A stretch of DNA of 64,000 nt. Origin: Prorocentrum cordatum (lineage: Eukaryota; Sar; Dinophyceae; Prorocentrales; Prorocentraceae). The stretch spans positions 397,001 through 461,000 of the forward strand of contig CAUYUJ010007236.1 of assembly GCA_963575745.1 (NCBI GenBank), given 5' to 3'. This document shows, piece by piece, positions 1-55,359 of the stretch. The notes beneath the pieces are model-generated. The model was not told the origin of the DNA, did no database searches, and worked only from the letters and a program-made list of their open reading frames with translations. How positions within the stretch are numbered: the first letter of the stretch is position 1; the number at the start of each line of letters is the position of its first letter. The position numbers were made by a program, and so were the translations under genes.

Positions 1-2782
1 ACGCATCGTTGTCCAGGCAGGATCTCGTGAGGTAATTGTTATGTATCCTGACGCTCGTCACACGCTTTACATCGAATGTCTCCTCACACGGGAACTTGGC
101 ATGGATAATATGGCCATGCAAACAGTCCTTACGTATGTGGCACACCTCGGTGCAGGGAAACCTGCCAAAGTCTTCGGCTACATCCCAGACTACAAGGGAA
201 ACCTCAATCTTTCAGACGACAGCAAGTTTCAACCGCGCGTAAATCTTGCACTACAGTATCTCGTGCGAAATTATTTCCGAGTAGAACACGTAGTAGCAGT
301 TAGATTGGCCAAAAGTGCGTCAAATCTACCTGCAGTAAAGTACGCCACCGGGTCTACGCTGATCCACTACGACAATGATGTCAGCCCAGCCTTCCACTAT
401 TATGAGTGTGTGGGCACTGGCCTGCATTTTTTTCAAATCACTGGTAGCACTCATTCCAGACTTATCCAATGCTTGACCTCACCTGTTCCTTCCTTAGGAT
501 TTCACGACGACCTGGCCAAGTATCAGCACTCGGGCACCACGTCTGGAGAACACGATTCGCCTGGATACAGGCCTGCACCAGATACCCCAGGTGCTTCATC
601 GCCAAGTGAAGGCCGTCTGTCGACAATCTATGAAGATAACGAGGAACATAACATCGAAGCCATGATGCTGGAAGAGTGGTACGACGAGTTACGTATGGAC
701 CTTCATCCCCCGACAACTACCGACGATTATCTCTACTGCGTCCCAACAACCATGCTGCCCGACCAATGTGTTTTGGTTTCAGCATCTGTGGACGAAGAAG
801 ACATCGTATTGTCGGAAACGCTCGGAGACGAGCCTGAACCACAAGAGCCCTGTCTAGCCTCTCTATGCTCAACCACACCTGACGAGGGCTACTCTCTTGA
901 CAGTGATGAATATGGTCCATATGTTGAGTTATGTTTTACATCAGAAATGTCAAAGGTAGTGTTGGATCAGACTCAACTTGCACAGCTCGACACTGATATG
1001 GTCGCAACGATGAGAGTATATGTATCCTCTGCTGCTAAACGTGCTGTGGTAGTCAAGGAAGACGACCTACTCACAAAAGCCGACATAGCAGCACACCCGA
1101 AAGAGGTGAGTGAAGCTTTGTACACTGAATTCAAGATCTCGCTTGATAACCGGTGCTTTGAGATGTACGATTTATCCAAAGCTTCCAACACCATGACATC
1201 CAGATATGTATATAAGTGGAAGTTTGTGAAGTCAGGTACCGAGAACGTTAAAACCATCCGTCTCAGACTTGTCCTTCGTGGATTTATGGACACTGAGGCT
1301 TTCGATGTGGAAACCTTCTCGGGAACCGCCCGAAGGCAGTCCCAGAGACTCCTGGCAAGTGAGGCGGCATGCCATCCAGAGTGGATCTTCGCATCCATGG
1401 ATATCGACAAAGCATTCCTCAAGGGTTTGACCTATGAGGAAGTTGCCCATGCCACCGGCGAGGAAACTCGCATGGTTTGCTTCGCTCTTCCACCGGGAAG
1501 TGCCCAGGTACTTCGTACATTGCCTGGCTGTTCATCTTATGACGAAAGCCGACACTGCCTCAGGTGCCTCAAGCCAGGAACGGGTACAAAGGACGCCCCA
1601 GGAGCGTTCTCTCTCAAGCTTCGTACGACCACACGAGCTATAGGCCTTACACCGACAAGCTATGATCCTGGATTTGAATTCAGCCAAGATTTGTTAACGG
1701 CAAAACATGTCGATGACATTAATATGACAGGCCTAGAGAAACATATAGACGACTATGTACAACGCGTCGGAGAGGTGTTTGGCAAATGCAAGCTTAACAA
1801 ACACTCATATACGAACTGCGCCGTTCGCTACACTAAGAATGACCAAGGGGATGTGATCATGGATCAGGACGAGTATATCAAACAATTACGTCCTATCACA
1901 CACCCAGAACTTACAGGAGCGGCGGCCGATGCCAGAGCCACCAAACTCATCACCGACATGTTCGTCAGCTTGCGAGGAGCCCTCGCCTATGCCCTTCTTA
2001 CTCAAGTCTGGCTCATGGCATACGTGGTCTCTCTCCAGAAAATCCAAGAGCCCACCAACCTACAAGTCAGACGACTGAATGCTGTGACGCGAAATCTGAT
2101 CAGCAGCCCGAAACGCATCACCTCCCCTCGGATGAAGCCGACGAATGAAGTTGACATACGCAGTGATTCAGGGCATCGGAAGCTCACCGGGGAGGAGGAC
2201 GATGAGACCAAGGGCTATGGCATACGCGGGGCCAACGTACTACGGCGAGGAAGCTCGCCTCAAAGCAAATCCGTCGTTCACCTCTGTGACGGACTATTCA
2301 AATCACACCGACTGCAGGTGAGGTCCAGTTATGCCGCAGAGGCACTCGCAGCTGCACATAACCTTGATGAGTGTTACCCTACGCTCATCACTCTCCACGA
2401 GCTCAAGGCAGGGGCTCTGGCCCCACGACAACTACGAGATATGCGTGAAGTTGGGGGCCTAGACATTAAAGGATCTCTTACTATAGACGCTGAGTCGGTT
2501 TATAAATCGCTATCCAGCAATGATCTTAAGATACCGACAGAACGGACCTTGCTTGGACATATTAGCTGGATACGTGAGCTCATGGACATAGGTATAGTAC
2601 ATAATGTGCAGTGGTATGATACTAGAGATATGACCGCAGATGGGCAGACAAAGGGGAGCATCGATCGGGAGCTGCTTTTGGAAGTGATGTCAGGCACTCA
2701 GTCATTTAAGTATGACGTGAAGCAGTTTGTTCCCTTTCGGGGTCCCGAGGACAGAAACAAGCTTAAGTCTAATCAGTTTTAG
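1..2782 (+). CDS. Ty1/Copia-type reverse transcriptase-RNase H polyprotein, 5' partial
   Basis: The frame is open from base 2, so the ATG at 41 is only the first visible Met and the protein enters from the left edge. Numbering from that Met (913 residues): the RT palm motif A MDIDKAFLKG lies at about 453-462, and motif C is AKHVDDI with the Asp pair at 558-559. A Copia-type RNase H follows, with DIRSDSG at 705-711 and the C-terminal DTRDMTADGQTKG at 860-872, typical of Copia elements. The first ~330 residues have acidic, low-similarity sequence that I cannot assign; no zinc knuckle or integrase is visible, and these may lie outside the window. The enzyme would copy element RNA into DNA and degrade the RNA strand. 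It is unbroken over 900 codons, which suggests a young copy. The family call is firm; activity is not shown. Confidence 0.9.
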   Translation, partial: RIVVQAGSREVIVMYPDARHTLYIECLLTRELGMDNMAMQTVLTYVAHLGAGKPAKVFGYIPDYKGNLNLSDDSKFQPRVNLALQYLVRNYFRVEHVVAVRLAKSASNLPAVKYATGSTLIHYDNDVSPAFHYYECVGTGLHFFQITGSTHSRLIQCLTSPVPSLGFHDDLAKYQHSGTTSGEHDSPGYRPAPDTPGASSPSEGRLSTIYEDNEEHNIEAMMLEEWYDELRMDLHPPTTTDDYLYCVPTTMLPDQCVLVSASVDEEDIVLSETLGDEPEPQEPCLASLCSTTPDEGYSLDSDEYGPYVELCFTSEMSKVVLDQTQLAQLDTDMVATMRVYVSSAAKRAVVVKEDDLLTKADIAAHPKEVSEALYTEFKISLDNRCFEMYDLSKASNTMTSRYVYKWKFVKSGTENVKTIRLRLVLRGFMDTEAFDVETFSGTARRQSQRLLASEAACHPEWIFASMDIDKAFLKGLTYEEVAHATGEETRMVCFALPPGSAQVLRTLPGCSSYDESRHCLRCLKPGTGTKDAPGAFSLKLRTTTRAIGLTPTSYDPGFEFSQDLLTAKHVDDINMTGLEKHIDDYVQRVGEVFGKCKLNKHSYTNCAVRYTKNDQGDVIMDQDEYIKQLRPITHPELTGAAADARATKLITDMFVSLRGALAYALLTQVWLMAYVVSLQKIQEPTNLQVRRLNAVTRNLISSPKRITSPRMKPTNEVDIRSDSGHRKLTGEEDDETKGYGIRGANVLRRGSSPQSKSVVHLCDGLFKSHRLQVRSSYAAEALAAAHNLDECYPTLITLHELKAGALAPRQLRDMREVGGLDIKGSLTIDAESVYKSLSSNDLKIPTERTLLGHISWIRELMDIGIVHNVQWYDTRDMTADGQTKGSIDRELLLEVMSGTQSFKYDVKQFVPFRGPEDRNKLKSNQF

Positions 2783-3600
2783 TCTGTCCTTGTTGCCCCC
2801 GCGGTCCAATTTGCCAGCATGGGCGCCTACTACAGAGGCGCCCTTCTAGGTGCTCGGACACGAGCCTTACATTTCACGCCTGGCAATGAGCCGGCTTAAT
2901 GTGATTCAGGCTCTTTGCCTTAATACCCGTTTGCTCGGTGAGGTATGGCCCGTTTGGCTTACCTCTAGCCGGGCCGATTGCCCTTTATCATTCAAGGGGC
3001 TGTCTTGTATTTGCGTGAAATGTTTTGCGAGGAAACTCGCCTTACAGTCTGGTGTTAGGCCAGTCTGTACGCACTGCTTTCTTGTAAACAGTTGCGCGCG
3101 CGGCCTTTGTAGAGCCTAACGGCTGCGCGGCTATACTCTCCGTCTCCTCCCCTCCCGACTTTGAGGGTAGCTCTTTGGGAGATGTTATATAGAATCGGGA
3201 TCATAGCTCGCGCGCCGTTGCCTTTGGCTCAAGGCACGCGCGCCCTATTTGCCCGGATACCTGACTTGGTATTCGCTATGTGCCGGAAAGACCGATACAT
3301 CGATCTTATCCTATCTTACCCACCCACTCCCCATATCGTATTCCTTCGACATGGAATTGGATGCAATGTGACCTACCAGGCTCACTTTCGACTTGCGGGT
3401 AGTCGGAAGCATGCAAATCGCATTTGTTTTCTGGGCGGAGTTGGTAGTGACGGAGGAGCATGTGGGATGATGTTGGGAAAATGATGGGCAAGAGGATCGT
3501 GCTTTCCATGATTCGCACAGCTTGCATTCGTGGACAGCTCTTTCTCATTCGTCCTCTTTGTCATTCGCCTTCCGCGTCTCCCACCTCTGTGGCGAGCCGC
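2783..3600. other. Non-coding 3' flank of the Copia ORF
   Basis: No convincing reading frame. A perfect 7-bp stem (GGGCGCC at 2821-2827, GGCGCCC at 2837-2843) with a 9-nt loop lies 38 bases after the Copia stop. The stretch should hold the 3' LTR if the element is complete, but I could not recognise LTR ends or a matching 5' copy, which would lie outside the window. A possible spliced-leader relic is listed separately at 3225. Confidence 0.5.
3225..3243 (+). other. Possible relic of the dinoflagellate spliced leader
   Basis: Reads CCGTTGCCTTTGGCTCAAG. Compared with the dinoflagellate leader core CCGTAGCCATTTTGGCTCAA+G it has one substitution and a 2-nt deletion. It also lies in a small palindrome (GCCTT...AAGGC), so chance similarity is possible, and no clear gene follows it. 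Confidence 0.4.
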
Positions 3601-3610
3601 CTCGAGAACT

Positions 3611-4205
3611 GTGTGTGTGTGTGTGTGTCACGCAACTCATCTGGGAAGTGAAGCGTCCCCGCCGCCGTTTGCGGCTCATGCTATTTGCACTAGCCCGCTT
3701 TGTCGAACGAAGAAGAGGATTGAGGGGCTGGGGCGAGGGGGAGGAAGGGGAGAGCGCGAGAAAGAGACAGTGATGACCATGAGGAGGAGGAGGAGGAGAA
3801 GGAGGAGGAGGAGGAGGAGGACGACGAGGAGGAGGAGGAGGAAGATAAGAGGAGGAGGAGGAGGAGGGTATGAGGAGGAGGAAGATAAATGGAGGAGGAG
3901 GAGGAAGAGGAGGAGGAGGAGGAGGCGTCTCCCCCGAGGACAACGGGCTTCGGTGACATGGCGAACTTTTTCCGGCAGTTTTCGGAGAGCCCTGGGCGGC
4001 AACGGCCCCGCCCGGACGTGCCTCCACACTTCCCGTCGCCTTGCTCCCCCTGGCCATCCAGCCCTGCTTCCCTCCCCCCCTATCCCCCCCCCCCTCTCTC
4101 ATCCCCTCGCCTTCTCCCCCAATCCTCCCCCTCTCTTTCTCTCCCTCGCTGATGGTGTTGTTTCTCGTTTTTGTTTTCTCCCCTGGTACCCCCCCCCCCT
4201 CCGCG
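3611..4205. repeat. (GT)n, (GGA)n and pyrimidine-rich low-complexity block
   Basis: A (GT)9 run at 3611-3628, a (GGA)n-type tract at about 3780-3930, then C/T-rich sequence with poly-C runs at 4030-4200. Long open frames on both strands here encode only Arg/Glu/Ser/Pro strings and are products of the repeats. Confidence 0.85.
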
Positions 4206-5880
4206 CGGGACCGTCGGGTGCTCGTGCGTACGTGTCCGATCGTTGAAGATCGGAGGCAAATGCGGAAGGTTACCGCGAATCGGTTTGGCTCACAGATTGC
4301 CGGAGTGTCAAGCAACAGTCAGTGAGGCAATTTTCGAGCATTCATTACAAGCGCCGTGAATTGGATCAGGTTCACTGCGGCGGACATTGCGAAGAAGGCC
4401 AGTCAGACTAATGCAGGCACAAGTGGAGGAAATAGGCGCACGGCTTGCTTGAATAAATTCGGTCGGGCCCAGCATTGATGATTGTAGTAGTGAGTTTGAT
4501 ATTGCAGCCAACATATATGTAGATTGTTCGGCAACGCCAGGTCTTGAGTCGATACGGCAACGGATTACGATAGTATTCTAATAGTTAGACGCAGTCGGCT
4601 ATATACACGCTAGTAAAACAAGTGTGGTTCATCAGTTCATCAGGAAATTTGGATCAGCTGCTCTGCAAGCGTTGCATAGCAGCTGTGAAAGTGCAGTAAC
4701 ACGTACCTCGGTAGGTCTGTTATTTGCAACTCTTTGTTTGCATTGTAAGTTGTTTGAGCATTTACGCGCAAGTTCAGACATGATGTTCCTGCACATTGCG
4801 AACACATCAATCACATCGCGGGTGCGAAGGTATTAGCTAAGTTGATGCATGTTGACGCCATTGAGGTCTAACAGGGGCCCCGTAATGGATCTCATCGCAA
4901 CGCCTTAATGCGATCCGAAATCAGGGGGCTCCTTTTGACCAGTGTCACACTACCATGTACCTCTACCCTTCCTACGACTTGTATTCCTCCTTGCCCTTCC
5001 CTCTATCTTTCCAGGGCCCCCCTTCGGCCACCCTGCCCCATCCCCGTCATCCTCCGACTCATCCTGCCCCCCCCCCTCCCTGGCCTCCTCTACCCCATTC
5101 CTCCCCAATGCGACGACGATAGCAGCGGGTGCCTGTGAGGAGGACCACAGGAGTACGACGGCCAGCTCGAAGCCCAGCTCCGAGGCGGGCTCGGCCCCCT
5201 GGCCCAACGCGGCCTCGCCTGGCGGGGTTGGAGGGAGTTCCTCATTGTCGTCGTCGCCGTCCTCGTCGTTATCGAAGTCGCCGCGTCCTCGTCCTTGTCC
5301 TCGTCCTCCTTGTCGTTGTCGTCGTCCTCGTCCTCGTCCTAGTCGTCGTTGTCGTCGTCGTCGTCCTGATCCTGGTCCTCCTCCCTTCCGTTTCTCACCT
5401 TTCCTCGCCGTCGTTTGCCCAATTTGGGCAGGCTTCCGGCCAAGTTCGGGAGGGGACCAGAAGCACACACAGAGACGCAATGGATCGTCGGCTCCCAGGA
5501 AAAGACGGGGAGATGTGGGAAGTGGGGGGGATACGAGCACCAGGGAAATGCGGGAAAACGTTGGGGATCCTGGGATTTGTGCCTATGTATTCGTGTGTCT
5601 TTGGGACCCTCTCACAAGCGGGGGCCAGTGCCAGGGCCGCGGGGGCTATGCCAGATTCTGCCCACGAGGGCGCAGCCGTCGTGGACTGCTCCAGCCCGAG
5701 CGGCCACCCAGGGCGAGTCTTCCTCCTCGTCGGTGGGGCTCGCCATCTGGGCTCGGGAGCATTAGGCTGGGCGTGTCCCTCTGCAGGAGGACGATTCGAA
5801 GATAGGCAAACATAGCCTGGTAGGGATTTTGCGGTTACGTGTGACTATATGTTTGAATATTGAATCGCTTCGCTCATTCC
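4206..5880. other. Gene-free stretch with a (CGTCCT)-type tract
   Basis: I see no protein-like frame. A CGT/CCT hexamer-like tract runs at about 5245-5390. Open frames over it are low-complexity Arg/Pro strings. Confidence 0.55.
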
Positions 5881-5884
5881 GCCG

Positions 5885-6239
5885 GCCCCTATTGTGCCAT
5901 CGCGGGTTCTTGGGGGGTCTTGGGAGCCCTTGGAAGCTTCGTGGGAGCTTCTTGGGAACTTTGGGAGGCCTCGTGGATGGCTCTGGGTGGGCCCTCTTGG
6001 TGGTCTCTTGGGGGGGTCTGCCTGGCCTCTTGGGGGCCTCCTGGAAGCTTCCTGGGGGTCCCTTGGGGGCCTCTTGGGGCTTTCTTGCGGCCTGTTGAGG
6101 GCCTCTTGGGGTTCTCTTGGGGGCTTCGTGGGGCTACTTGGGGGCTTGTAGGGGCATTTCGGGGGCGTGTTTGGGCGGGAGGCTCAAAATTTCTGTTCAG
6201 GTTGCCCCTGTGGACCTCAATCATGGGGCCGTCTTGGGG
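5885..6239 (+). repeat. Degenerate CTTGGGGGCCT-type short repeat
   Basis: Irregular tandem copies of a roughly 10-20 bp G-rich word built on TCTTGGGGGCC. The same texture recurs at 14320-14900 and, in the opposite orientation, at 18715-19085. Confidence 0.7.
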
Positions 6240-7756
6240 CCTCTTGGACCGTCTTGAGGGTTTGTTGGGCCTTCTTGGAGCGCTCTTGGGCCGTCTTTGA
6301 GCGGTCTTGAGGGTCTCTCGGGCCGTCTTGGGGTGATCTTGGGGGCCTCTTGGACCGCCTTGAAAGGTGTGAAAGACGAAGAGGCGGATATGTTAAAAAT
6401 GCACGTTTTCCTAAGGGAATGGGACGATTTTTGCTTGTGGGAGCCCTCTTGGGGCGCCGCTTAGGGACCTCTTGGGGCGTCTTGAAGGCCTGTTGGGCCG
6501 TCTTGAGGCCATCGTAGGCGCTTGGGGGTGATATTTCGGCGTCTCCCGGCTCTCTTGGACCGTCTGGAGGGCTTCTCGGGCCCCTCTTGGACCGATTTGG
6601 AGCCCTCCTGGGCTCCGAAAAAGAGTTCTTGAGGGTTTCTTGGGCCTTCTTGGAGCGCTCTTGGGCCGTCTTTGAGCGGTCTAGAGGGTCTCTCGGGCCG
6701 TCTTGGGGTGATCTTGGGGGCCTCTTGGACCGCCTTGAAAGGTGTGAAAGACGAAGAGGCGGATATGTTAAAAATGCACGTTTTCCTAAGGGAATGAGAC
6801 GATTTTTGCTTGTGGGAGCCCTCTTGGGACGCCGCTTAGGGACCTCTTAGGGACCTCTTGGGGCGTCTTGAAGGCCTCTTGGGCCGTCTTGAGGCCATCG
6901 TAGACGTTTGGGAGTGATATTTCGGCGTCTCCCGGCTCTCTTGGACCGTCTGGAGGGCTTCTCGGGCCCCTCGTGGACCAATTTGGAGCCCTCCTGGGCT
7001 CCGAAAAAGAATTCTTGAGGGTTTGTTGAGCCTTCTTGGAGCGCTCTTGGGCCGTCTTTGAGCGGTCTTGAGGGTCTCTCGGGCCGTCTTGGGGTGATCT
7101 TGGGGGCCTCTTGGACCGCCTTGAAAGGTGTGAAAGACGAAGAGGCGGATATGTTAAAAATGCACGTTTTCCTAAGGGAATGGGACGATTTTTGCTTGTG
7201 GGAGCCCTCTTGGGGCGCCGCTTAGGGACCTCTTGGGGCGTCTTGAAGGCCTGTTGGGCCGTCTTGAGGCCATCGTAGGCGCTTGGGGGTGATATTTCGG
7301 CGTCTCCCGGCTCTCTTGGACCGTCTGGAGGGCTTCTCGGGCCCCTCTTGGACCGATTTGGAGCCCTCCTGGGCTCCGAAAAAGAGTTCTTGAGGGTTTC
7401 TTGGGCCTTCTTGGAGCGCTCTTGGGCCGTCTTTGAGCGGTCTAGAGGGTCTCTCGGGCCGTCTTGGGGTGATCTTGGGGGCCTCTTGGACCGCCTTGAA
7501 AGGTGTGAAAGACGAAGAGGCGGATATGTTAAAAATGCACGTTTTCCTAAGGGAATGGGACGATTTTTGCTTGTGGGAGCCCTCTTGGGGCGCCGCTTAG
7601 GGACCTCTTGGGGCGTCTTGAAGGCCTGTTGGGCCGTCTTGAGGCCATCGCAGGCGTTTGGGAGTGATATTTCGGCGTCTCCCGGCTCTCTTGGACCGTC
7701 TGGAGGGCTTCTCGGGCCTCTCTTGGACCGTTTGGAGCCCTCCTGGGCTCCGAAAA
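6240..7756 (+). repeat. Tandem array of four ~375-bp units
   Basis: The landmark GGAGCCCTCC with its upstream GACCRATTT falls at about 6590, 6976, 7351 and (variant) 7726, giving periods of 386, 375 and 375 bp. Each unit holds a conserved stretch around GGCGGATATGTTAAAAATGC (6377-6418 and equivalents). Copies are nearly identical (units at 6587 and 7348 share a long exact run), so the array is recent or homogenised. The first unit starts inside the degenerate repeat to its left. No coding role is evident. Confidence 0.9.
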
Positions 7757-23000: not shown

Positions 23001-23441
23001 CTGTATGCGTCGACAGGATCCCAGGAGACTGTCGGCCGCTCGAATGCCAGAGCCAAGTTTTTGAAACGGCCCACCCTCCGTCTATGCAGAGGTTGGGTCG
23101 GAAGTGTCGGGGGCGTCTGAGGCGAGAGGTTGCGCCCACCGGCCGCCGCGTCCGGTGGCGCAGCGAGGGGAAGTATCTGCAGGGAAGAGGGGTGGAGGGC
23201 GGAAGAACGTGGGGTGGTGAGGAGGATTCGATGATATGTGGTTTGCCATCGGGGTTGTTCCTTATATATCCTCTCTCTATATATCGTTATCTTTTGTGGT
23301 TGTCTGTTTGCTTTCTCTCTCTCTCTCTCTATTTGTCTCTTTCTGTTGATATATGTATATATATATACACATATGTGTATACACACAAACGCTTGCGGTA
23401 GATAAATCGAGGGAGGGAGAACAGGGGGTGCGGGGTAAGAC

Positions 23442-24535
23442 ATGGCCGAGAAACAGAATGCATGGCAGTCGCTGTTGTGGCTCAGCCTTTTAAGGCTTTT
23501 CTTGGCCCTGCGGGGCATGTCTGATTCTGGCGCCGGGCCCCCGCCTCCAGCCTGGCAGCCCATCCAGGAGGCGGTCCCGGCGCCTCCCGGACCGCCGCCT
23601 CCGCGGCCGCCCGTGCGATATTGCGAGTGGTGTTCCGGGCGGCTGGGGCCCGGCGAGCCCCTGGCGCTCGCCCTGAACGGCGAGCTCTGGGAGGTGCGCG
23701 AGTTGTGCTACCTCCAGGGGCTGGCGCGGCAACACGCCTGGCGCGCCCGGCTGACGCCGGGCGAGCGGGCGGTGCTGCTGGAGCAGGCGCGCCACCTGAC
23801 GGCGCTCCTGGCGGCGCTGGCTGGGCTGGCGGACGAGCTGGTCCGGGATGCCACCCAAGGCTAAGGCCAAGGCGAAGGGCAAGGCCAAGGCTGTAGCCCG
23901 GGGCCGCGGCGTCGCGCGAGGAAGGGGACGCGCCCGTGGCCGAGGACGTGGCGGCGGCAGAGGAGCTGCGGCGGCCGGCCGCGGCCGAGGGCGCGCCCGA
24001 GTGGGCGCGGGAGTGGCGGCAGGCGGCCCCGGCGCGGGACTTGCTGCGTTACCCCCCCTTCGGCGCTGCCGTTCCTCCTGGCGGCGGAGGCGCTGCGCTG
24101 CTGCCGGGGGCCCCCCCGCTCGGGATTGCGGCCGGACCGCTGCCAGGCCCGCCGGGCGCCGCGCCTGGTGGCGGCGCGCTTGGGGCCCCGCCCGGCGCTG
24201 CCGCTGGGGTCGGCGCGGCCCTCGTGGGCGCCCTGGCGGCGCTGCCTGCTCCAGGCGGCGGGGGCCCCCCTTGGCGCGCCGCCGGCGCCCGGGCCCCTCG
24301 CGCTGCCAGGGGCGACTGCTGCCGGCGCTGGAGGCGGCGTCGTGGCGGTCGCTGCGGGGCCGGCGCCCGCTGGAGGCGGCGCGGTGGCGCTGGCGCGGCT
24401 GGTGGACGGCCCCTGGATGGGCTCGCCGGCCCTTCAGCACGGCGCCTTCGCGCCTGGGATGGTGCTGGAGACGCCGACGCACGACCCGACGGGCCAGGTG
24501 GACGGCACGGTGCTACGCCCCGACTCTCCATGAGG
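23442..24535 (+). pseudogene. Basic, Cys-containing protein gene with frameshifts, possibly a retroelement 5' ORF
   Basis: 23442-23864 encodes 140 residues from an ATG; the likelier start is Met26 at 23517 (MSDSGAGPPPPAW). It has a Pro-rich stretch, a CEWC...C segment that might bind zinc, and a helical Leu/Ala/Arg tail. Its end overlaps, in another frame, a Lys/Ala and Arg/Gly-rich segment beginning MPPKAKAKAKGK at 23848, RNA-binding-like in character. Protein-like text then moves to a third frame (APEWAREWRQAAPARDLLRY, about 24000) and returns to the first (LVDGPWMGSPALQHGAFAPG, 24405-24535). The simplest reading is one ORF broken by at least three indels. Its gag-like composition suggests a retroelement, but no RT follows. 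Confidence 0.5.
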
Positions 24536-42682: not shown

Positions 42683-43851
42683 TCAGGGAGTGGCGTCTCC
42701 CAAAAGATGAATTGCCATCTTGGCCATGCTCTCGCCGAACGCCCTCGGGTACGTGCCAGTGCCTTTCAAAGCGGAACCTCCCACGACATACGTGCCGTCC
42801 ATCCGCCAGACTGCCTCGCGACGCTTCGGCTGATGCATCTTTGTCGGCATGCTACGCCGCAAAAAACGCTTCGCTACATCGATGGGAACAGTGGTATCCA
42901 CACACCACGTCGGGTGCACAAGAGGCAGCGTGCGTCCTCGATTTCTTTATACATCTAGGGGGTGGGGGCGGGGGCTGGCACCGATGCATCCCCTGGCGAA
43001 GTATGCGCCAGATGTGCTGGCGCGAAGCGCACGTAAAGATATGCGCGGCCTTGGGGATTGGCAGGGAGCGGTCAAATGCACCCAGCCACGTGCAGATCGT
43101 ATTGATAGTAACACGCTTCTTGAGCGAGAGAAACGCAGGGTGGTGCTTAAACATTGAGGTGGTGGGTTGCTCGATTGAAATGTAAACACGTGCCAGGCTT
43201 AAGTGCGTGCACACCCAACTCACGAACAACGCCATGGCGTTCCCAACGTTGACGAGAGTGTACGAATCATTCCCAACGGGATCATCAGACGACCTGCCAC
43301 TCTGCCATCGGCTGATCCACGCATAGCTTCGACAGTCCACGCCGAAATGCACGAACCCCTTCGGACGCACGCGGAAACGCAAGATTGCGCACCACAGCAT
43401 CCCTGCACACGTGGTTATGTCTTGCGACACATGGTTAATAATGTCGAAGGAGCCCACGTTGTATCCTCTCCGCAGCATTGCTTTGCCTGGGCTATCCCGC
43501 CCACTGAAGATATGAGCGAAGTCAAGGTCTGTGGCGATCTTGCCTGGGGGAAGGCGCGTGGCATATGCTCGTCGGTATATGCGCCCGTGCGAGCGCGACG
43601 AGTTCCAAGGCGAGTCCAACCGTCGCGCGCGGGTTTACAGACACCCAGGAGCGAATGCGTTGAGCTTATGCCACTATCGATCCTGAGCGAAGCAAGCCAG
43701 GAACAGTACTCGCAACGAACTGTAATGTCCCGAAGCGTGTCTGGTCGGCGTTCGTCGACGCCAGCTGCGCGACCCACTCTGGAACTGCGGGGTCGACAGT
43801 CGCGCCGACGTGCACCACCATCAGCGCCGCAAGAAGCACGGCGCAAGCCAT
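42683..43851 (-). pseudogene. Cytosine-C5-methyltransferase-like (Rossmann) protein
   Basis: The likely start is the ATG at 43851: MACAVLLAALMVVHVGA looks like a signal peptide or membrane anchor, followed by DPAVPEWVAQL. A TAA at 43664-43666 interrupts, but the same frame goes on as AQRIRSWVSVNPRATVGLAL. From about 43535 another frame carries FAHIFSGRDSPGKAML (a motif-I-like FSG loop), GVDCRSYAWISRW (a PC-loop-like site with Cys but no Pro-Cys-Gln) and YISIEQPTTSMF (an EQP in place of ENV). The tail GTGTYPRAFGESM ends at the TGA at 42683, in a third frame. This pattern fits a large dinoflagellate family that I know only as methyltransferase-like; catalysis is unproven. Introns or frameshifts separate the pieces. 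The ATG overlaps the stop of the transposase-like gene upstream as TGATG. Confidence 0.55.
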
Positions 43852-50425: not shown

Positions 50426-51268
50426 TGCCACTGGCGCCTTCGGCGGGGCTCCCTTTGGGGCCACGATCCTCGTGAGGGTGTGCCGAAATGGCCCGAGGCC
50501 GCCATGCGAACCCTGCCACTGGCGCCTTCGGTGGAGCTCCCTATGGGGCCACGATCCTCGTGAGGGGTGTGCCGAAATGGCCCGAGGCCGCCATGCGAAC
50601 CCTGCCACTGGCGCCTTCGGTGGAGCTCCCTATGGGGCCACGATCCTCGTGAGTGGTGTGCCGAAATGGCCCGAGGCCGCCATGCGGACCCTGCCACTGG
50701 CGCCTTCGGTCGAGCTCCCTATGGGGCCACGATCCTCGTGAGGGGTGTGCCGAAATGGCCCGAGGCCGCCATGCGAACCCTGCCACTGGCGCCTTCGGTG
50801 GAGCTCCCTATGGGGCCACGGTCTTCGTGAGGGGTGTGCCGAAATGGCCCGAGGCCGCCATGCGAACCCTGCCATTGGGGGCCTTCGGTGGAGCTCCCTA
50901 TGGGGCCACGATCCTCGTGGGGGGTGTGCCGAAATGGCCCGAGGCCGCCATGCGAACCCTGCCACTGGAGCCTTCGGTGGAGCTCCCTATGGGGCCACGA
51001 TCCTCGTGAGGGGTGTGCCGAAATGGCCCGAGGCCGCCATGCGAACCCTGCCACTGGAGCCTTCGGTGGAGCTCCCTATGGGGCCACGATTCTCGTGAGG
51101 GGTGTGCCGAAATGGCCCGAGGCCGCCATGCGAACCCTGCCACTGGGAGCCTTCGGTGGAGCTCCCTATGGGGCCACGATCCTCGTGAGGGGTGTGCCGA
51201 AATGGCCCGAGGCCGCCATGCGAACCCTGCCAGCGGGGCCTTCGGTGGAGCTCCCTATGGGGCCACGA
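50426..51268. repeat. 89-bp satellite, about 9.5 copies
   Basis: Unit starts near 50426, 50514, 50603, 50692, 50781, 50870, 50959, 51048, 51137 and 51227. Each holds GGTGGAGCTCCCTATGGGGC, CACGATCCTCGTGAGGGGTG and GCCGAAATGGCCCGAGGCCG. Copies are over 95% alike. Since 89 is not a multiple of three, the reading phase rotates every unit, and the array is open in several frames on both strands; it is not a gene. The left side is lost in the gap, so the copy number is a minimum. Confidence 0.97.
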
Positions 51269-52330
51269 AGCGGTGGGTGAAACGCAGGGATGAAGAGGAG
51301 GAAGGGGGCAGCGGGAGGAGTGGACGCGGGGCGCTGTCTCTTCAAAACGAGGACCCAACACCACAGGGCGGTTGGGAAAATGGAAAGGAGGAGGAGGAGA
51401 CAGGAAAGGACAGGAGAGGAAAAGGAAGGAAAATGAAAAGAAAGAAGGGATGGGCAAGGACATGGGGAGGGCGAGGGGGATCCACTGAAGAAGACACTCA
51501 CACTTGCAGTGCTCACAACTGCGCATGGTTGGGTCCTTCCTTTGCCGGGATGATTTGGGTTTGGCCAAGTAGAGCAGCAGGAGATGAGCAGGATCGGCGG
51601 TGCCCTCGACACGCCTCGTGCACTCGTGCCAGTGCGCACTCACTGCGGACAGCCCAGAAAATGCAGCGACGAGAAAGGGGGGCCAGGAACAAGAGGCACC
51701 GGCGAGCCTGCATCCACGGTGGTGTAGTAGAGCCAGAGCACCGGGCGCGGGCTGAGCCGTGCTGGGGGTGGCGCTCGGCACTCTCCATCCTCTGCCCTTT
51801 TCCCTTTTCCCTTTTGCCCTTTTCCCCCTGCCCCCTCCTCCCTTCGCCCTGCCCAACCTCCCCTTCGCTGCCCCTCTCTCTCTTCCTTCCTTCTCCCTTC
51901 CTTCCTTCTCCTCTCCTCTCCCCTCTTCCCTGCTGCCAGCTGGCAGCTGCAGCAGACAAAAGCGCTGGGCGGGGGAGAGCAGGCAGGCAGGCAAGCGCGC
52001 GCAGTGCAGTAAGTTGGCGAATCCTTTTAACAGAGGAGGAAAAGGGGGAGGAGGAGGAGGAGGAGGAGGAGGAGGAGGAGGAGGAGGAGGAGGAGGAGGA
52101 GGAGTAGGAGGAGGAGGAGGGGGGAGGGGCAGGCTCACTGTGTCCCCTCCTTCCTTCCTCCTCCGTGATTCTCTCTTATCTCTTTGCCCTCCTCTTCTCC
52201 CCTCTGCCTCCTGTATGTGTAATCGTATTTGCAGTAGTGGCAGACGCGCTTCTTATAGCATTGGTAACGCAAATACGTACTTCAACGGCGGCAGCCGTCA
52301 CAGAGGCACCCACAGCGGACCTCTGGCTCA
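51269..52330. other. No gene seen; purine-rich flank and (GGA)n
   Basis: 51290-51480 is purine-rich, 51780-51930 is C/T-rich, and 52037-52120 is a (GGA)n tract. I found no convincing frame on either strand. Confidence 0.5.
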
Positions 52331-52539
52331 TGATTCTTGGCCCCTCGGCCACGATCTCTTGTTCAGGGAGCGCTCCCGCTCGCCGCTCCCGCCGAGGACG
52401 CCCCGCGGGGACAGCCCCCGCCCCGGGGCCGCGGCGGCGCCGGGCCGCGTGGAGCTGCACGTCGGACGCCCCCGAAGTCCGCGCCTTTCGGCAGGGCCAG
52501 CCGGCAGCGCAGGTCGGCGGGGGGGCCCCCAAGGCAAGG

Positions 52540-53004
52540 CGATGGGCGGCAGCCCGAAGGGCGCGGGCAAGCACCGCGGGCGACGGGCGCCGGGAGGAGG
52601 GATGCCGGGTCGCGGGCGGCAGGCGCCCTGGGAGGGTCGCGGCAAGGGCCGCTAGCGCCGGAGGCGCGGGTGCTCTCTGCTGATGATGCGCGTGGGGAGG
52701 CAGACCCCATGGGCCCAGCTGGAGCTCGTGCTGACTGCATGGGCGACCTGGGGCCGCCAGCTGATTCCTAGCAGCAGGCCGGCAGGCGGCGCGCGCGGAG
52801 GCGGCTTGCCCGGGCGCGGGCGCCCCCCTGGCGAAGCTCTTCCGCGCGAGGCAGGAGAAGGCTGGGGCTGCTGCCGAGTGGTTCCGCCGCCCGCTGGATG
52901 CGGGCCCGATCCTCGAGGAGCTGATGCGAGAGCCCCCAGGGTCGCTCGGGGTCTACGTGGGCAAGTTCATGGACAGCGGGCATCGGCCAACTAGACGGGG
53001 GTAG
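52540..53004 (+). pseudogene. Frame-broken 5' part of the RT-methyltransferase retroelement
   Basis: Protein-like text passes through three frames: a basic, Gly/Arg-rich segment (GKAMGGSPKGAGKHRGRR, ending near 52655), then a short acidic one (RVLSADDARGEADP, to 52771), then ARQEKAGAAAEWFRRPLDAG and MREPPGSLGVYVGKFMDSG up to a TAG at 53002. This last frame is the one that continues into the RT ORF, so a single TAG separates them. The basic segment is gag-like. At least two indels and one nonsense change affect this part while the downstream 785 codons are open. Confidence 0.55.
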
Positions 53005-55359
53005 CTGCAGCGCGATCTGTTCCCGCTACCCTGTCCTGTTATAGATGCTTCGGATTTCACCGTGGAGGAGATGTTTGACCCAGGCGACCGGACCTCGCTG
53101 CAGTCTCGCTTGAGGGTGATTGTGATGGCGATGAACTGGGGGGCCGGCCACCGCCACCTGAAGTTGGCCGACGTTTGCGGGCTGGAGCCGCATGCGGCCC
53201 AGCGCTCCGCTCTCCTCGGGATCGCGTGGCGCATCTACTCGAGTGTCGTGCCCGAGCCCGTCATGGCCGGGACCCTCTACTGGTCCGAGAAGCTGAAGGG
53301 CCGGGCCATCGCCTACCACGGCTCGGAGGTCTCCACGCCGAGCAGGATTACGCTCGAGCAGATCGAGGGCGGCCTGCCGCCGGTGGGGGTGGCCGCCTCC
53401 ATCGAGGCCGCGGACCTCGCCACGGGCTTCGTGCGGGCTGCGCTGCTGGGCCCCGTCCTTGGTCCTCCTGCCGCCGGCGCAGAGGCGCCCCGCGCCCACC
53501 TCGACGCGCGTCTGGGCGACGTCGCAGGAGTGGGGGCCAGTGGTGAGCGCCTTGTTTGCTCGCGGGATCCCTTGATCACCGGGGCCTTCGGCGCGGCGAA
53601 GGTGCACGACGCGCCGGTCCGCTGCAGCGACGGCGAGGAGCGGCCGGTCCTTCGGCTCATCGTCAACCTGATCCCCGCGAACGCGTGCCAGCGCACCATC
53701 GCGGGGGACGCCCCCGTCATGCCGGCGATGGGGCAGCTGAACGGGCTGGTGCCGACGCCGGATGAGCAGCTGCTCTGGAGCGCCGCGGACCGCAAGGCGT
53801 TCTTCTACGTCTTCCGGGCGCGCCCGGCCAGGTGGCCCTACATGGCGCTGGGGCCTCCGGTGCCGCGGCGACCGGTGGGCGGCAGCGGCGACGGGCTGAC
53901 TCGCATCGCCCTGTGGGTCATCGGCATGGGCTGCATCAGCGCGGTCGGGGTGGCGACGCGCGTTCTCGGCAACATGCTGAGGCGGTCGGCCTCGGCCCCC
54001 CTCGGGCTGCCGCCTGCAGCCGAGGTGGTGCGCGCCCGCCGCCTGCCCGCGGAGGCCCAGGCAAGCGGGGTCGCGACGTGGTCCATCGACATCGACAACC
54101 TCGAGATCGCGGAGATCGTCTCGAGGGAGGAGGCCGTGAAGCTGAAGGGCAGCATCCCGGAGCTGCTGAGCCAGGCGTCGGCCTGCTACGAGCGGGCTAA
54201 GTCTCCCGGATCGCCGGGCAAGGACGTCCACTGCGCCCAGCAGGTCTCCACCTTGGGGTACCTCGTGGACGGCCCGGCCGGGGTGCGCCGGCCGCTGCTG
54301 GGGTGCGTCACGGAGCTCACGAGCCTGACGCTGTGGTTCTTGGCGAAGAGGCGCCCGAGCAAGCGCCTGGCGCAGATCCTGCTGGGGCGCTGGGTCCGCG
54401 TGCAGTGCTACTGGAGGCCGCTCGCCGCCGCCTTCGTGAACGCCTGGAAGTGGCTCGCGTCGGGCCGGTCAGGCGGGCTCGCCACCCTGGGCCTCGCCGA
54501 GGACCTGCTGATGGCGGCCGCGCTCGCGCCGCTCAGCGTGGCGGACATGCGGCTGGCCGTCGACCACCTCGTGGCGGCGTCCGACGCCTCGGAAGCCGCG
54601 GGGGCGATCGCCTACTCCCAGGGGCTGTCGGACATGGGCCGCGCCCTTGGCGCCAGGGGCCCGCGGCCTCTCAACCCGGCCTGCGAGGAAGCCGTCGCGC
54701 TGATCTCCGTCTTCTCGGAAATCGACGGCGCGCGCCGGGCCTTCGAGATCTTGGGGCCCGCCCCCGCGGCGCACCTCTCGTTTGAGGTGGGCGCCAAGGC
54801 CGTGCGCGTGGCTCGGCGGGCGTTCCCCAGCACCGTGCACCTGGGGGGCGTCACGGCTGCGGATCCGGCGCATCTGGCGCGCCTCCTGAGGGGCCACGGC
54901 CGCATCGCGAAGGTGATCGTGGTCGGGGGTCTCCCCTGCCAGGGCCACGCGGCCCTGAACGTGGACCGCAAAGGGGGCGCGGGCCCGAGGTCGCAGCTTG
55001 CGGGCCACATGTGGAGGCTCATCGAGGGGCTGAAGCGCGAGCTGCCCGAGCCCACGGTGGACTTCCTCGGGGAGAACGCGGCGCCCATGGCGGAGGACGA
55101 GGTTTTGGCCTTGAACAAGGTGTTCGGCCGAGTGCCGGTGTCCTTCGACGCCGCGGACCTGGGCAGGGTCCGCCGCCCGCGGCTGCATTGGCTGTCGTGG
55201 GACCTGCTGCCCTCCTTCGAGATGGCAGCCGAGATGAAGGCGACGGCGGATGGGGCCCGGCCGCGGGGTTGCCGGGTGCAGCTGGTGACGGAGCTGCCGC
55301 CCGTCTCGGAGTGGCTGCCGCGCGGGGCCTCCTGGCCCGGGGCCGCCGAAGGTGCTTGA
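53005..55359 (+). CDS. Retroelement ORF: reverse transcriptase, RNase H and C5 DNA methyltransferase fusion
   Basis: Open from 53005; the first ATG is at 53071, and numbering here counts the GTG at 53062 as residue 1. RT: RLIVNLIPAN near 213, motif A WSAADRKAFFYVF with Asp243, a motif-B-like GMGCISAVGVATRVL near 293, and motif C SIDIDN with Asp345 and Asn346 in place of the usual DD. RNase H: AASDASEAAGAIAYSQGL with Asp508. Methyltransferase: motif I ISVFSEIDGARRAFEILG (548-565), motif IV GGLPCQGHAALN with catalytic Cys626, motif VI GENAAP (Glu671), and a motif-VIII-like RRPRLHW near 706. The ORF ends about 50 residues later, without target-recognition domain or motifs IX-X. Such fusions are known from dinoflagellate retrotransposons (de Mendoza and colleagues, 2018). 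It could methylate newly made copies, but motif I is off-consensus and the C-terminus is missing, so this copy may be inactive. Confidence 0.85.
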   Translation: MQRDLFPLPCPVIDASDFTVEEMFDPGDRTSLQSRLRVIVMAMNWGAGHRHLKLADVCGLEPHAAQRSALLGIAWRIYSSVVPEPVMAGTLYWSEKLKGRAIAYHGSEVSTPSRITLEQIEGGLPPVGVAASIEAADLATGFVRAALLGPVLGPPAAGAEAPRAHLDARLGDVAGVGASGERLVCSRDPLITGAFGAAKVHDAPVRCSDGEERPVLRLIVNLIPANACQRTIAGDAPVMPAMGQLNGLVPTPDEQLLWSAADRKAFFYVFRARPARWPYMALGPPVPRRPVGGSGDGLTRIALWVIGMGCISAVGVATRVLGNMLRRSASAPLGLPPAAEVVRARRLPAEAQASGVATWSIDIDNLEIAEIVSREEAVKLKGSIPELLSQASACYERAKSPGSPGKDVHCAQQVSTLGYLVDGPAGVRRPLLGCVTELTSLTLWFLAKRRPSKRLAQILLGRWVRVQCYWRPLAAAFVNAWKWLASGRSGGLATLGLAEDLLMAAALAPLSVADMRLAVDHLVAASDASEAAGAIAYSQGLSDMGRALGARGPRPLNPACEEAVALISVFSEIDGARRAFEILGPAPAAHLSFEVGAKAVRVARRAFPSTVHLGGVTAADPAHLARLLRGHGRIAKVIVVGGLPCQGHAALNVDRKGGAGPRSQLAGHMWRLIEGLKRELPEPTVDFLGENAAPMAEDEVLALNKVFGRVPVSFDAADLGRVRRPRLHWLSWDLLPSFEMAAEMKATADGARPRGCRVQLVTELPPVSEWLPRGASWPGAAEGA

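Follow-up and report, generated by a model that had tools for sequence, protein, structure and literature searches.

The window analysed here is a 64,000-nucleotide stretch of the genome of the dinoflagellate Prorocentrum cordatum (contig CAUYUJ010007236.1, positions 397,001 to 461,000). It harbours an open reading frame (ORF) at 53005-55359 (+), of 784 codons plus stop, which represents pol sequence left by a dead, truncated copy of a retrotransposon of DIRS type (tyrosine-recombinase) and of the SymbioDIRS-Dnmt3 kind. In the relatives of this fragment a DNMT3-type cytosine-C5 methyltransferase is very probably nested inside RNase H, an anatomy predicted from sequences and a structure model. 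The best explanation overall, to which we assign a probability of about 0.78, combines a dead SymbioDIRS-Dnmt3-type fragment, a nested methyltransferase, and a putative coupling of RNA removal to DNA methylation.

The open frame and the decay of the window copy

The initial annotation described one long ORF at 53005-55359 that joins reverse transcriptase (RT), RNase H and a cytosine-C5 methyltransferase. The ORF is as described and the remnants of the three domains are real, but the picture they give is incomplete. The features identified are given below; loci are designated L, proteins are designated P, and E is the expect value.

52366..55352, +, whole retroelement fragment (pol region only, both ends truncated); blastn to L004 91.5-92.5%, to L022 84-90%
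52741..53001, +, upstream pol coding remnant in the same frame as the ORF; tblastn of P0003/P0002 from 52741/52786
53002..53004, +, in-frame TAG that splits pol and creates the apparent ORF start; sequence and translation
53005..55359, +, reported open frame, 784 amino acids; ORF list
53450..53570, +, frame-shifted stretch of about 120 bases; other frame matches P0002, alignment gaps to L022 and L004
53566..54411, +, reverse transcriptase domain; profile rt1 E 2e-106; motif A Asp 53788, motif C DIDN 54088
54547..54648, +, RNase H first part (strands 1-2; first catalytic Asp 54583); profile rhN1 E 7e-16
54694..55356, +, remnant of a C5 methyltransferase of DNMT3 type, covering motifs I to VIII only; matches positions 1-215 of profile mt1, E 2e-80
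23344..24514, +, second, separate piece from this element family (5' end, including A repeat and leader); blastn to L028+L022 positions 941-2118, 83%

The residues first reported as Asp243, Asp508, Cys626 and Glu671 exist (codons 53788, 54583, 54937 and 55072, respectively), but their numbers were counted from a GTG at 53062 and not from the start of the frame; in whole-frame numbering they are 262, 527, 645 and 690. The Cys and the Glu belong to the methyltransferase remnant, which possesses PCQ, E and RRPR. Strands homologous to the RNase H first part of the window are present in a structure model of the relative P0011. RT motif C was correctly read as DIDN, but DIDN itself is a change of the window copy. 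In an 18-row alignment of relatives, the first Asp of the motif is present in every row, and the next residue is Asn in sixteen and Asp in two.

The reported frame starts at 53005 because of the TAG at 53002-53004, and pol homology extends upstream of this start, to 52741 at the protein level in the same frame and to 52366 at the DNA level. Beside the shifted stretch, about 40-46 bases present in relatives are missing. Homology to the element ceases at about 55352, so that the window copy lacks the second half of the methyltransferase (the target-recognition part plus motifs IX-X), the corresponding half of RNase H, and the recombinase. Comparison with the nearest fetched copy, L004 (92.5% in DNA), revealed 134 differences in 53569-55352, distributed 46/48/40 over codon positions 1/2/3, and this even distribution gives no sign of constraint. 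The upstream in-frame stop, the shifted stretch, the truncation and the even differences make the window copy a dead one, and any notion that it could act finds no support, the copy being broken and drifting.

The guanine-cytosine content at third positions (third-position GC) of the frame is 0.91. An antisense open frame of 401 codons (53026-54231, -) overlies the element and is probably a by-product of this composition. The separate fragment at 23344-24514 lies 28 kb upstream of the pol fragment, and the two are either one split element or two independent fragments.

Position of the methyltransferase in related elements

The search of the P. cordatum assembly (4.13 Gb, 21875 contigs) with the window protein revealed at least 67 matches at no fewer than 57 places, the window counted; the count is a lower bound, with 57 of 3336 candidates scored. 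Short pieces aside, the copies form two groups, whose proteins are about 71-85% and about 54-60% identical to that of the window copy. In all 23 distinct genomic places examined, the RT is followed by the RNase H first part and then by the methyltransferase. In 12/12 proteins and in 18/18 genomic places holding all three parts, RNase H is interrupted between strands 2 and 3 by the DNMT3-type domain. In the more complete copies, the methyltransferase separates the first catalytic Asp of RNase H from the Glu, Asp and Asp that follow. The tandem order RT-RNase H-methyltransferase read from the window is thus replaced, in the relatives, by RT, RNase H first part, methyltransferase and RNase H second part.

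The more complete copies are 8-8.5 kb long and of DIRS type, with pol followed by a tyrosine recombinase. Four long stretches were fetched (L022, L023, L024 and L025). In L022, L024 and L025 one frame carries RT, RNase H first part and methyltransferase, and the order continues with the RNase H second part and then with the recombinase in another open stretch. The recombinase was found in a separate ORF after the pol stop in three of the four long stretches; L023 reads N from position 5886, covering the recombinase region, and the recombinase stretch of L025 is interrupted by an internal stop. The pol frame of L024 runs uninterrupted through 1666 codons (1436-6433), and the recombinase of this copy is encoded at 6458-7372. 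All three copies with both ends read from contiguous genome possess A-coding-B-A-B repeats, with A of 87-94 bp (left end) and B of 239-396 bp (the right end reads B, A, B).

Elements of the DIRS order are characterised by RT, RNase H, a tyrosine recombinase, split or inverted repeats, and no target site duplication. RT, RNase H, tyrosine recombinase and repeats of the split or inverted kind are all present in this family. The initial annotation was right in proposing a retrotransposon that carries a cytosine-C5 methyltransferase, here one of DIRS type with a tyrosine recombinase. It was also right in pointing to the 2018 work on dinoflagellate retrotransposons with DNMTs, as the repeat pattern and the architecture match SymbioDIRS-Dnmt3 (PMC5890265).

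The window protein matched no Pfam family, and hence no PF00145, at E<=10. Taken formally, this result went against the methyltransferase, for which a PF00145 match had been set beforehand as the check, but it is overruled by the matches in relatives. Against the PDB, the window protein gave a weak match to DNMT3A (E 0.018, residues 637-730). Fifteen proteins matched it at E<=0.001, ten of them from P. cordatum and five from ENA or JGI (32-37% identity). PF00145 was detected above the curated cut-off in five of the eight relatives scanned (P0005, P0011, P0012, P0013 and P0016), but not in P0003, P0014 and P0015. A further scan of nine proteins, including P0026 of the second family described below, detected it above the cut-off in five (P0017, P0021, P0022, P0024 and P0025); in P0018 it was below the curated cut-off. 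A 9-row profile of the window family (family 1) matched human DNMT3A with E 5.9e-18 and M.HhaI with E 2e-6. The closest profile and fold matches of the family-1 methyltransferase are DNMT3A/B/C, which is a similarity ranking and not a tree.

No Pfam RNase H model matched any relative scanned. Since Pfam is blind to this RNase H and PF00145 misses several relatives, annotations of dinoflagellate genomes may underrepresent elements of this sort. Two scans of viral contigs found no relative of the element; the viral-contig locus L001 was rejected as a relative, its ORF looking like an ordinary C5 methyltransferase. In the P. cordatum genome, at least 129 PF00145 matches over the cut-off are spread across many contigs (123 of 3988 candidates scored). 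Many of them lie in open frames that occur repeatedly, with lengths of about 383-402 and 468-478 codons, and that are perhaps other methyltransferase-bearing repeats.

A second, distant family of recombinase retroelements (family 2) possesses another C5-methyltransferase-fold domain in the same RNase H slot. Comparison of the two families gave E 3e-19 for RT, E 3.5e-29 for the RNase H second part and E 0.027 for the slot domain. The recurrence of such a fold in this slot suggests that the solution is a general one and no accident. It is conceivable, though rather doubtful, that the RNase H of dinoflagellate tyrosine-recombinase retroelements offers DNA-modifying domains a place to dock between its strands 2 and 3, and that the nesting makes one RNA-stripping, DNA-marking machine. 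The slot domains would then be DNMT3-type (several with DUF4326) in one family and a much-diverged C5-methyltransferase fold in the other, and the arrangement would be old, since the slot domains are no longer alike in sequence while RT and RNase H still are.

DUF4326, a domain of unknown function, was found in the RNase H slot of P0003, P0005, P0015 and P0017 of P. cordatum. The window itself harbours a remnant of the family-2 slot domain, with the C5-methyltransferase fold, at 43101-43523 (-) (profile E 1e-10). Unlike family 1, family 2 keeps Asp-Asp in RT motif C, in 23/23 rows with a letter.

Constraint, alternative explanations and a proposed role

Ratios of nonsynonymous to synonymous substitution (dN/dS, by NG86) were obtained from the 23 places, which provided 18 whole stop-free RT sequences, 11 methyltransferases, 10 RNase H second parts and one recombinase (unused); all other sequences were dropped, as was L003, the same place as L022, and pairs with dS under 0.02 were left unbinned. 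At dS 0.5-1, the medians were 0.37 for RT (52 pairs), 0.46 for the methyltransferase (28) and 0.19 for the RNase H second part (10), in pairs that are not independent and with ratios that NG86 probably inflates at such third-position GC. These medians indicate that the methyltransferase is kept, less strictly than RNase H. Young pairs (dS 0.02-0.15) gave higher medians of 0.77 for RT (62 pairs), 0.55 for the methyltransferase (22) and 0.31 for RNase H (8), the pattern anticipated where many copies are dead. Motif X Asn of the methyltransferase is retained in nine of the twelve relatives' rows with a letter.

In an intact element, the RT would copy the RNA and the composite RNase H would remove it. 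The tethered methyltransferase would meet the new duplex cDNA and methylate its CpGs before the recombinase inserts the cDNA, and the new copy would then resemble CG-methylated host DNA. As nesting puts the methyltransferase where the hybrid becomes DNA, methylation could be tied to RNA removal and occur before integration. This functional coupling of RNA removal and cDNA methylation is proposed tentatively, at somewhat less than even odds. The 2018 text left open the reason for an element to keep a DNA methyltransferase (PMC5890265), and nesting makes self-methylation of the new copy a structural hypothesis on one polypeptide.

Several observations weigh against the nested, RNA-coupled methyltransferase. 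The family-2 relative P0051 has no insert: its RNase H runs without interruption over about 75 residues, from the Asp to HIN, and the recombinase comes next. P0051 may be ancestral in this respect or may have lost the insert. The search of the P. cordatum genome with P0051 gave 70 matches, 69 of them in the recombinase half; among the four fetched (L031-L034) insert-free copies were not seen, and in each of them the RNase H second part is preceded by the family-2 domain. In family 1, the catalytic Cys of the methyltransferase is replaced by Arg in 2/15 rows with a letter, and the constraint on this domain is weaker than that on RNase H (0.46 vs 0.19). CpG is not depleted in the window fragment (observed/expected 1.01 vs 0.77-1.14 in 4-kb window blocks), so self-methylation has left no mutational trace; the 2018 work likewise found no CpG depletion for SymbioDIRS relative to other DIRS (PMC5890265). 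The best 50 fold matches of the P0011 model include no RNase H chain, an uninformative absence since methyltransferases fill all 50, and the RNase H fold of this model is recognised from strand/helix order plus homology to family 2. The profiles behind the domain-order count were built partly from the sequences counted.

The main rival explanation is that the methyltransferase is a passenger, captured in a tolerant loop of RNase H, which folds independently, adds nothing to transposition and persists only because it is harmless to RNase H. The weaker constraint, the undepleted CpG and the loss of the catalytic Cys, also seen in four of 24 family-2 rows, are in agreement with a passenger. Nonetheless, the dN/dS of the methyltransferase between diverged copies remains below 1 (0.43-0.55 over 28 pairs), its motif residues are retained in most rows, and a C5-methyltransferase fold occupies the same slot in two distant families. 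In addition, when two SymbioDIRS-Dnmt3 domains were placed in isolation in yeast, they methylated CG de novo (PMC5890265). We consider a mere passenger less likely than not, though it is the rival that fits best.

In DIRS elements with a Dam-type domain, this domain sits after RNase H. A similar tandem order, with a complete RT-RNase H followed by the methyltransferase, is what the window alone seems to present, as DASEAAG precedes the methyltransferase and nothing RNase H-like follows; it is contradicted by the relatives and is very improbable. That the frame is a host gene, working or domesticated, and combines functions of RT and methyltransferase, as its length and third-position GC might suggest, is still harder to accept with an upstream stop, a shifted stretch, half of the methyltransferase missing, and differences from L004 spread over all codon positions. 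Finally, the idea that a retroelement and a host DNMT gene were brought together by accident or by the assembly is hardly credible: although Pfam is blind to the window copy and its identification rests on relatives, the same succession of three domains recurs at all 23 places of a family with dozens of matches in the same genome, and in the proteins from other samples at 32-37% identity.

Elsewhere in the window, an open frame of 926 codons at 2-2782 (+) encodes RVT_2, a Copia-type reverse transcriptase (E 7e-9), and eight other large ORFs had no Pfam match at E<=0.01. Tandem repeats with a unit of about 89 bp form an array at 50432-51414, with a run of N just before it.

Comparison with known systems

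DIRS elements that bear DNMTs were already known, and nesting of the methyltransferase inside RNase H appears new within the literature searched. No description of such nesting was found there, and Fig. 1e and the supplement of the 2018 paper, which lie outside that literature, may draw it; neither a second C5-methyltransferase fold nor DUF4326 in the slot was found in the literature searched.

Similar to the elements described here, SymbioDIRS-Dnmt3 (de Mendoza et al. 2018) combines RT with a Dnmt3-type domain in a single Pol ORF and possesses a tyrosine recombinase in a separate ORF, A-coding-B-A-B repeats, and many copies per dinoflagellate genome (PMC5890265). Its authors proposed methylation of the cDNA (PMC5890265). 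The host differs, Prorocentrum being a name absent from the 2018 main text, and so does the position of the methyltransferase, here inside RNase H, where the 2018 text says only that domain orders vary between two structures (PMC5890265). A further difference is that several P. cordatum proteins carry DUF4326 in the slot.

SymbioLINE-Dnmt is also a dinoflagellate retrotransposon with a C5 methyltransferase; however, it is a LINE, and its DNMT, of an orphan lineage, is in most cases encoded by an ORF that precedes the one for RT (PMC5890265). KnitGypsy-Dnmt3 likewise has a Dnmt3 domain within its Pol polyprotein, but it is a Gypsy element of a charophyte and represents an independent capture (PMC5890265). 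DIRS elements with a Dam-type methyltransferase share a DNA methyltransferase on a tyrosine-recombinase retrotransposon, although theirs is an adenine enzyme and structurally unrelated (PMC5890265, PMC6338049). The P element transposase, too, has a whole domain inserted into an RNase H fold. It is a DNA transposase with a GTP-binding domain between strand 5 and helix 4 (PMC7776569), whereas in the retroelement described here the insertion lies between strands 2 and 3.
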